A stretch of DNA of 5,775 bases from Gemmatimonadota bacterium. GTDB lineage: Bacteria > 4572-55 > J002. The stretch is taken from assembly GCA_003697105.1 (NCBI GenBank), contig RFFQ01000017.1:1-5775 (forward strand), given 5' to 3'. The translations under genes and the position numbers were made by a program. Positions 1 to 5,671 of the stretch are shown piece after piece; within the stretch, counting starts at the first letter, position 1, and each line of letters begins with the position of its first letter. The notes under the pieces are model-generated. The model was not told the origin of the DNA. It saw nothing but the letters and a program-made list of their open reading frames with translations, and did not search any database.

Positions 1-84
1 CATCCTTCATCCTTCCGCCTTCATCCTTCATCCTTCCGCCTTCCGCCTTCATCCTTCATCCTTCCGCCTTCCGCCTTCATCCTT
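1..84. repeat. Heptamer tandem array, two unit types, 12 copies
   Basis: Twelve consecutive 7-bp units without interruption. Two variants occur: A = CATCCTT and B = CCGCCTT on the plus strand (AAGGATG and AAGGCGG on the coding strand). Read on the minus strand from position 84 down to 1, the order is A B B A, A B B A, A B A A. There is therefore a 28-bp higher-order unit: 57-84 and 29-56 are identical, and 1-28 differs only by B to A in its third unit. The array touches the window edge and may be longer. Units 1 to 9, plus one base of unit 10, are translated as the tail of the TPR membrane protein. All of this is read directly. The similarity to short tandemly repeated repetitive sequences known from cyanobacteria is a resemblance only. 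Confidence 0.97.
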
Positions 85-2045
85 TCATACAGTGTTTTGA
101 CAAAATCTGGATTTGGGGTAAAGCCGAGTGCTTGTGCTCGTTCAATATCTTGTTGTGCCGCATCAAACTGCCCCATAAAAAAGAGGGTCACGGCGCGACT
201 TTGATATATTGCCCCATTTTCCGGTTCAAGTCGTAGTGCTTGTTCTAAATCTGCTAAAGCTTGGCGATATTGTCCCAGTGCAACATACACATTTCCACGA
301 TTATGAAATGCTTTTGCATAGCTCGGGTCACATTCAATCGCCCGCGTAAAATCCGCGAGGGCTTGTTGTGGGTGTTGTTGCTGGTATAGCACACCTCGGT
401 TATTGTATGCTTGGGCTAAATTTGGATTCAAATACAATGCGTGCTGATAGTCTGCCAGCGCATGTTCCACATCCCCTTGAATTTGATAAAGATACCCCCG
501 CTGATAGTAGCTTTCTGCATCATTTGCTTTAAGCTGTAACACCCGGTTTAAGTCGTGAAGGGCTTGCGAATAGTTCCCTTGCATCCGGTAAATCACCGCG
601 CGCGAACGATAACTTTTAAAGTATTGTGGGTCATACTCAATCGCACGATTAAAATTCTCCAGCGCACGGGGCAGATCGCCCATTTTGATGTATGCCTCAC
701 CCCGATTATGGTAAACCGAAGCATTATCCAGTTGGATGCGAAGCGCGGCATCAAAATCCGCTAAAGCCCGGTCAAACTGACCCTGACGGGCATACCATAC
801 CCCCCGATTATTATACGGCATCGGAATACGATCCGGATATTTTGTAATCGCATCCGACCAAAGCACCCCCTCATTTTTCCAGATGGAAACTTGTTGGTAG
901 CTTAACATCACCCAGGCAATACATATGATCGATAATACAATACCGCCCGCCCGCCGGAAAGAATGTAAAAACCCTTCCGGTTTAAGCATGATGCCGATCC
1001 CGAATATGGAAAAATACAGGTAACGGTCGGCAACAGTGGACCAATTTTGATACTCAAACGGTACAAAACCGGAAACCGGTAACCATCCCAAAACGAAAAT
1101 CACCAACCCTACCCAAACATACCGGTACGCGGTGAATTTCCACAGAACTACGACAAGGATCAACACAGGAATAACCCAACTCCACCAAAACCACCCCTGC
1201 GCCATCACCCAGAGAGGTGTTCGTCCATAACTGACAGATAAATTAAACGGTAAAATAAGTTTCCACAGGTAAAACTGAATTGCATCACACCAAATCAGCG
1301 GACGTGCCCACAGGGACGGTACAAAATCCAGCACCGTGTGCGGTTGTGCCCAGCGGGTCAAAAAAATGATGGGAACAATAAGTGCCAACCAAAGCCCGAA
1401 TCGTTTGAAACTGATTTTCCAGTTGACGCCTCGTAACGCCCCGTCGATTACCATCAAAATCAGAGGTAAAACCAAAATCGAAGGCTTGGCAAAAAGTGCC
1501 AAGCCAAATAATAGAGTCGCCAAACTATAGCCAAGCCAATAGCGCAAAAGATTGGAATCATTCAGATTTAGGTAAATAAGCATAGCACCAAATCCCAAAC
1601 TTGCGCTAAGCAAATCTTTTAAGCCCCATGCTAACGCCACGACTTCCACCTGCACGGGATGCACCGCGAACATCATCGCCCCTAAAGCCACAATCCAACG
1701 GTCTTTTATCAGGTGAAAAAGAATAAAAAACACAAATAAACTATTGATAATATGGAGGATAATGTTAGCGGCATGAAAGACGCGCGGGTTGAAGGGGGAA
1801 TCTGGGTCAAGTTGGTTGAGTAGCAGCCATGCCGTCAGCGCCACCGGTACATAAAGTTCATTGTAAGGTTGGCTCCAGATGTGATGCAGACTTTCCGCCC
1901 GAATACCGGTGAGATATGACCCATGATCCAAAATAAACTGATCATCCCAGACGAACTCGTGCGTCATTGTTCGTCCAAAGATGATCAGGGGTAACAAAAT
2001 CAACATCAAGATGATAGGCAGAAACGATTGAAGACGGCTCTTCAT
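21..2045 (-). CDS. TMTC/GT-C-like multi-pass membrane protein with C-terminal TPRs
   Basis: The protein has 674 residues. Residues 1-400 hold about 10-12 hydrophobic segments (for example 7-24, 94-112, 117-137, 170-200, 213-230, 285-302, 307-325, 366-382). After the first segment comes a WDD motif (W33 D34 D35), as in the acidic first external loop of GT-C glycosyltransferases. An AVHPVQVE stretch (H129 P130) followed by KDLLSA (K143 D144), and ADRYLYFSIFGIG (D340 R341), match patterns I associate with TMTC-type O-mannosyltransferase-like proteins and their bacterial TPR relatives. Residues 409-644 form seven TPRs of about 34 residues. The fifth (545-576) is two residues short. The likely role is lipid-linked sugar transfer to an exported protein, with the TPRs binding the substrate or a partner. 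The acceptor is unknown and activity is inferred. The start follows the sppA stop by 2 bp and has its own SD. The last 20 residues (655-674, RMKAEGG-type heptapeptides) come from heptamer DNA and are probably not ancestral. A non-enzymatic TPR membrane scaffold is the main alternative. Confidence 0.88.
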   Translation of the reverse strand: MKSRLQSFLPIILMLILLPLIIFGRTMTHEFVWDDQFILDHGSYLTGIRAESLHHIWSQPYNELYVPVALTAWLLLNQLDPDSPFNPRVFHAANIILHIINSLFVFFILFHLIKDRWIVALGAMMFAVHPVQVEVVALAWGLKDLLSASLGFGAMLIYLNLNDSNLLRYWLGYSLATLLFGLALFAKPSILVLPLILMVIDGALRGVNWKISFKRFGLWLALIVPIIFLTRWAQPHTVLDFVPSLWARPLIWCDAIQFYLWKLILPFNLSVSYGRTPLWVMAQGWFWWSWVIPVLILVVVLWKFTAYRYVWVGLVIFVLGWLPVSGFVPFEYQNWSTVADRYLYFSIFGIGIMLKPEGFLHSFRRAGGIVLSIICIAWVMLSYQQVSIWKNEGVLWSDAITKYPDRIPMPYNNRGVWYARQGQFDRALADFDAALRIQLDNASVYHNRGEAYIKMGDLPRALENFNRAIEYDPQYFKSYRSRAVIYRMQGNYSQALHDLNRVLQLKANDAESYYQRGYLYQIQGDVEHALADYQHALYLNPNLAQAYNNRGVLYQQQHPQQALADFTRAIECDPSYAKAFHNRGNVYVALGQYRQALADLEQALRLEPENGAIYQSRAVTLFFMGQFDAAQQDIERAQALGFTPNPDFVKTLYERMKAEGGRMKDEGGRRKDEG

Positions 2046-5643: not shown

Positions 5644-5671
5644 GATTAGGATTTAGGGATTAGGGATTAGA
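5644..5671. repeat. Heptamer repeat abutting the waaF start codon, four units
   Basis: Four 7-bp units in exact register on the plus strand: GATTAGG, ATTTAGG, GATTAGG, GATTAGA. The first unit begins at the base next to the waaF ATG, so on the coding strand the untranslated leader ends in CCTAATC followed by ATG. No purine-rich SD lies within 20 bases of the start. The total of 28 bp equals the higher-order unit of the array at the other end of the window, though the unit sequence differs. Confidence 0.9.

Follow-up and report, generated by a model that had tools for sequence, protein, structure and literature searches.

We found that a G-rich tandem heptamer array at the edge of an assembled contig has overrun the last codons of a gene for a TPR membrane protein, giving the gene a different stop codon and some 20 further codons derived from the repeat, which are presumably translated as a tail of the protein. 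The window analysed here is the whole of contig C39, 5775 bases long, from a 4.18-Mb genome in 199 contigs, and the features that matter are as follows:

1..84, minus strand (G-rich strand): heptamer array, units ABBAABBAABA and a partial unit, with the contig end at base 1
84..2045, minus strand: native part of the TPR membrane-protein gene, 654 codons, its native end set by homologues
21..83, minus strand: array-encoded C-terminal tail RMKAEGGRMKDEGGRRKDEG with its stop, translation recomputed
21..23, minus strand: TGA stop codon, from unit 9, an A unit

Recomputed from the sequence, the array consists of two units, GGATGAA (A) and GGCGGAA (B), which follow one another on the minus strand from base 82 as A B B A A B B A A B A and then a partial A. 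Tandem Repeats Finder reports a period of 7 with 12 copies across bases 1-84, together with a 28-base super-repeat in the array (3 copies, 96% match), and on these grounds a chance origin of the array was rejected. Base 1 is the end of the contig, so that the array is cut there, its visible length is a minimum and the TGA stop of the TPR gene lies only about 20 bases from the assembly break. A sequence-only reading of this DNA had placed the array at 21-84; the array is indeed there, with a span of 1-84 up to the contig end, and the unit assignment of that reading (B at units 3 and 6, A at unit 9) is exact.

The open reading frame runs from 2045 to 21 on the minus strand and encodes 674 residues, with TPR repeats at about residues 410-640 (Pfam) and a hydrophobic N-terminal half. 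Residues 655-674 are encoded by the array (bases 83-24): the frame passes through nine units, read as RMKAEGGRMKDEGGRRKDEG, and terminates at the TGA of unit 9 (23-21), such that recomputation of sequence and frame bears out the earlier claim that the array lies in an open frame and provides the stop codon. The native end was placed with homologues from a single genome (G033), in which four homologous ORFs of about 33-40% identity align up to query residue ~652-654 and stop 4-8 residues past the end of the alignment, with tails such as ASGR or LREASGR. This agrees with the suggestion of the sequence-only reading that the native protein might end near residue 650, the homologues placing its end near 654. 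That reading had also held that repeat-free homologues keeping the heptapeptide would speak against it; we looked for these, and none of the four G033 ORFs has the heptapeptide. These repeat-free homologues finish about where the array begins in the TPR gene, and with other residues, which makes the tail repeat-derived and means that the array has replaced the last few native residues and the native stop. A search with the TPR protein across 84,980 species found no relatives; one further member of the class yields no more than a weak TPR match.

Whichever of its three frames is read, the G-rich strand encodes peptides of the form R(M/R)K(D/A)EGG; the frames are distinguished only by the units that fall in stop phase. 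As A contains TGA and B has no stop, a run of A units soon stops translation in every frame. On the opposite strand there are zero stops in any frame, and ORF finders therefore report spurious HPSSFIL-type proteins there. We computed the outcome of removing or duplicating any single unit: the shortest resulting tail has 6 residues and the longest runs on past the visible array, but all are rearrangements of the R(M/R)K(D/A)EGG motif with the same composition. The earlier statement that gain or loss of a unit would change the tail thus holds for its length and hardly for its composition or character. With random unit order the probability of a tail of at least 20 residues is 0.21, so that the present tail is of ordinary length.

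Nine loci in the source genome carry the array (C3, C10, C38, C39, C49, C61, C113, C177 and C199), with sizes from 5 to about 60 units. At all eight arrays with a visible upstream gene, the array sits at the 3′ end of that gene with the G-rich strand as the coding strand. The array itself provides the stop at five loci (C3, C38, C39, C61 and C177), two of which, C3 and C38, lie inside contigs and carry the same in-frame tail; at three others (C10, C49 and C113) an intact stop precedes the array, which begins 9-24 bases later. The upstream genes are unrelated to one another and include those for a helicase, an LPG-synthase-like membrane protein, an SDR, a C25 peptidase and a MoaC-Mog fusion, the last followed by a 60-unit array between moaC-mog and moeA, all on one strand (C177; Pfam). 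A placement test gave 8/8 for the observed arrays versus a mean of 0.74 and a maximum of 4 in 2000 draws, the random positions being drawn, with a random strand, from non-coding sequence at these loci; the 30-base limit was set after seeing the data and genes were taken from simple ORF rules. ORF-based context is unreliable at C177, where the MoaC-Mog and MoeA genes were entered by hand from Pfam, and also in G387, which has many arrays inside genes and was excluded from the test. At C199 the array stands at the right contig end and enters an open frame that leads into a FlgD-like/secretion-tail domain (DEGGRMKDEGG...); it is partly built of 24-base units that preserve the frame, so this copy may lie within a gene. 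As the arrays of C39 and C199 both break off at contig ends, we weighed a connection between the two but could not demonstrate one.

We consider it likely that the array is a copy of a G-rich heptamer family that gathers behind genes with its purine-rich strand coding, that it overran the native end of the TPR gene, and that the resulting tail is tolerated rather than selected. A G-rich heptamer array would come to sit just behind a gene with its stop-rich strand as the sense strand, and would overrun the last native codons and the native stop; with a non-triplet unit length of 7 and a TGA in each A unit, a new stop would soon follow in any frame. An array in sense orientation can thus stand in for a native stop, the price being a short, charged extension. 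The length of the array presumably changes by slippage or unequal recombination, with the length of the tail following; both this mode of growth and the neutrality of the tail are inferred. The tail is accordingly no dedicated switch, in all probability, but a by-product that is tolerated. Tolerance of stops accounts for arrays that reach into a coding end; it does not cover the G-rich sense strand behind intact stops or tRNA genes, and a further constraint or function is likely in such positions, the tRNA genes being those of other genomes.

Beyond the source genome, a 26-base array pattern was present in 3/385 other genomes of a wide sample, and a strict 40-base pattern recovered 15 loci in a scan of 84,980 species, which fall in Anaerolineae/Anaerolineales, Pyrinomonadaceae, another acidobacterium, Abditibacteriaceae, Sumerlaeota and Planctomycetes. 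Many of these copies consist of a G-arm, a short loop and a C-rich arm, with hairpin z-scores of -6 to -20 against mononucleotide shuffles, and such hairpins occur behind tRNA genes too. For Pyrinomonadaceae CH3, a sense position at a gene end was counted for 20 of 39 arms, against a random mean of 3.65 and maximum of 11, and one arm is in the reverse sense only; in Anaerolineales H5_CFX5 several single arrays lie away from gene ends. The latter genome also displays G-arm/loop/C-arm hairpins in frame inside long ORFs (L131:652-3687; L109 ~2508-2577; L110 ~2467-2542), whose hosts, named from sequence alone, are a PriA-like helicase for L131 (ARRMKAEGGRMKEGNPPSSFIPHPSSFVALP) and two histidine kinases for L109 and L110, with the copy inside the ATPase domain (ARMKDEGG...HPSSFILQISISDTGPGIAP; VERMKAEGG...HPSSFILFSVADTGIG). 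A wider proposal, which we advance tentatively and with some doubt, is that the GGATGAA/GGCGGAA arrays form one dispersed repeat family common to several phyla, which would settle at stops and, as two-armed hairpins, in frame within important genes, spread by a shared sequence-specific process; the tail in the window would then be one outcome of repeat-driven protein extension.

The main rival of the by-product view, with which it is not fully exclusive, holds that the array is a functional element of the transcript 3′ end (a terminator, an mRNA stabiliser or a stop/restart device that couples translation to the next gene), kept for that role at the RNA or DNA level, with the tail incidental; we regard this as a possible but less probable account. 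The sense orientation that is kept behind intact stops and tRNA genes points to such an element, as do the strongly folding hairpins of other genomes, the AAGG and overlapping ATGA that every A unit contains, and the position of the C177 array on one strand between moaC-mog and moeA. Yet that array separates two genes of one pathway, for which a terminator is ill-suited, and the five complete arrays of the source genome fold no better than shuffled sequence and have no C-rich arm. A terminator hairpin in the source genome was rejected on the folding result; the same five arrays lack the stable hairpin with a following U run of an intrinsic terminator, and the copy in the window is cut by the contig end. 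That cut, within the array itself, and the two-armed copies that are common elsewhere, some of them in frame inside genes, would also suit an explanation in which the window array is one arm of a gene-inserting dispersed palindromic element (G-arm, loop, C-arm) whose second arm lies past the contig end, but with a C-rich arm in 0/5 of the complete source-genome arrays we think this unlikely.

The sequence-only reading had seen in the unit pattern a mutable C-terminus of the TPR membrane protein, under which view it would be a selected contingency locus. In favour of this, slippage would alter the length of the tail, which is in frame, translated heptamer tracts act as switches elsewhere (e.g., neuO), and arrays differ among the relatives of ribD (see below). 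Against this, unit changes barely alter the composition, arrays of the same kind stand behind unrelated housekeeping genes, at three loci after intact native stops, homologues lack the tail, and the known heptamer switches sit at the 5′ end, where a change of frame matters. A selected mutable C-terminus is therefore not supported and appears very improbable. Finally, the unit order or the stop position could be an artefact of assembly at a contig end, and four of the nine arrays (C39, C61, C113 and C199) do stand at contig ends, as expected where repeats break assembly; but arrays inside contigs are arranged alike, including the two with the same in-frame tail, and the arrangement recurs in independent assemblies, which makes an artefact highly improbable.

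Variation of the array between related species can be followed at ribD in Pyrinomonadaceae, a proxy from another phylum that concerns the kind of array and not the TPR gene. RibD of CH3 ends in KAKDEG, encoded by an array of A units, and its relatives of 65-85% identity differ at the same place, with RNEGGPV and SRNER among their endings. Where the ending is AKTG another heptamer-like repeat follows, where it is EARDTE there is no array, and where it is KSEG or KSEE a G-arm/C-arm hairpin is present; as the endings differ in this way among relatives, presence of the array and the tail change together between related species. In three relatives of CH3 (L174, L175 and L176), the hairpin that separates ribD from the following gene seems to give the ribD stop and, with its C-rich arm, to encode the beginning of the protein that follows (HPS..KRLGQNFL-like).

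A literature search for the unit sequence returned only unrelated papers. The nearest known repeats in kind are the G-rich heptamers of Rehm et al. 2015, GGGAATC in Xanthomonas and GGGGA(C/T)T in Nostoc, which vary in unit number, are mostly intergenic and lie beside genes of all classes; copies downstream of a gene have the coding-strand orientation and lie no more than 50 bases from the stop, which some overlap, convergent inverted pairs occur, and a role in phase variation was judged unlikely (PMC4692102). The present array is likewise a tandem 7-base unit of variable number at many loci per genome, with 8/8 source-genome arrays on the coding strand near or overlapping the stop. Unlike the Rehm repeats, it has the units GGATGAA/GGCGGAA, which fit neither GGGANTN nor GGGGAYT, and comes from another lineage; moreover, its units hold GG tracts only, so that a three-tetrad quadruplex is not expected. 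Convergent inverted pairs of the Rehm kind are absent from the five complete source-genome arrays but common with GGATGAA/GGCGGAA in other genomes. Accordingly, the present array is of the Rehm kind and placement and of a different sequence family. A second parallel is provided by the TAACTGA direct repeats of Beggiatoaceae and others, patchy across phyla, which, read forward, put a stop in each of the three frames and reach into the ends of genes upstream (MacGregor 2015; PMC4679880). For runs of A units the present forward strand also stops all three frames, and GGATGAA/GGCGGAA arrays overlap upstream stops and are patchy across phyla; they differ in unit, are longer, and lie behind genes, whereas TAACTGA is mostly found just upstream of starts. 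Heptamer repeats overlapping stop codons are already described (PMC4692102, PMC4679880), and the present array is of this kind in position and behaviour.

In neuO of E. coli K1, a translated heptanucleotide tract in the 5′ region switches the whole protein on and off (PMC13001214); the present tract resembles it in lying in a reading frame and in having tandem 7-base units whose number determines that frame, but stands at the 3′ end, where the C-terminal tail alone changes. The Rickettsia palindromic elements, about 150 bp long and encoding a conserved peptide, are repeat DNA translated within host proteins (PMC10969869), comparable in this to the in-gene hairpins of Anaerolineales; in contrast, the array in the window consists of heptamers at the end of a gene and shows a single arm, two-armed in-frame copies being found in another genome. 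The case shows how a non-triplet repeat can safely take over a stop codon, with a short charged tail in place of a ruined gene, and extends by one heptamer the short list of repeats known from gene ends. It also warns annotators that RMKDEGG-like tails and HPSSFIL-like ORFs stem from repeat DNA, and the loci make it testable why G-rich heptamers sit coding-strand behind genes in distant phyla.

Two further repeats accompany these arrays or share the window. A third repeat of the AACTC(A/G)T(A/C)A type, with units of 8-9 bases, directly follows the heptamer array in C3, C38 and C49, and its pattern has 114 matches in the genome versus 3 for a reversed control. At the other end of the window, a heptamer-like GGGATTA repeat (5644-5671), G-rich on the plus strand, lies directly upstream of the start of a glycosyltransferase-9 gene (5643) and on the non-coding strand of that gene; members of the GGGATTA family likewise immediately precede the gene starts at C49:44781 and C67:36303, a placement that agrees with the upstream rule of Rehm 2015 (PMC4692102).
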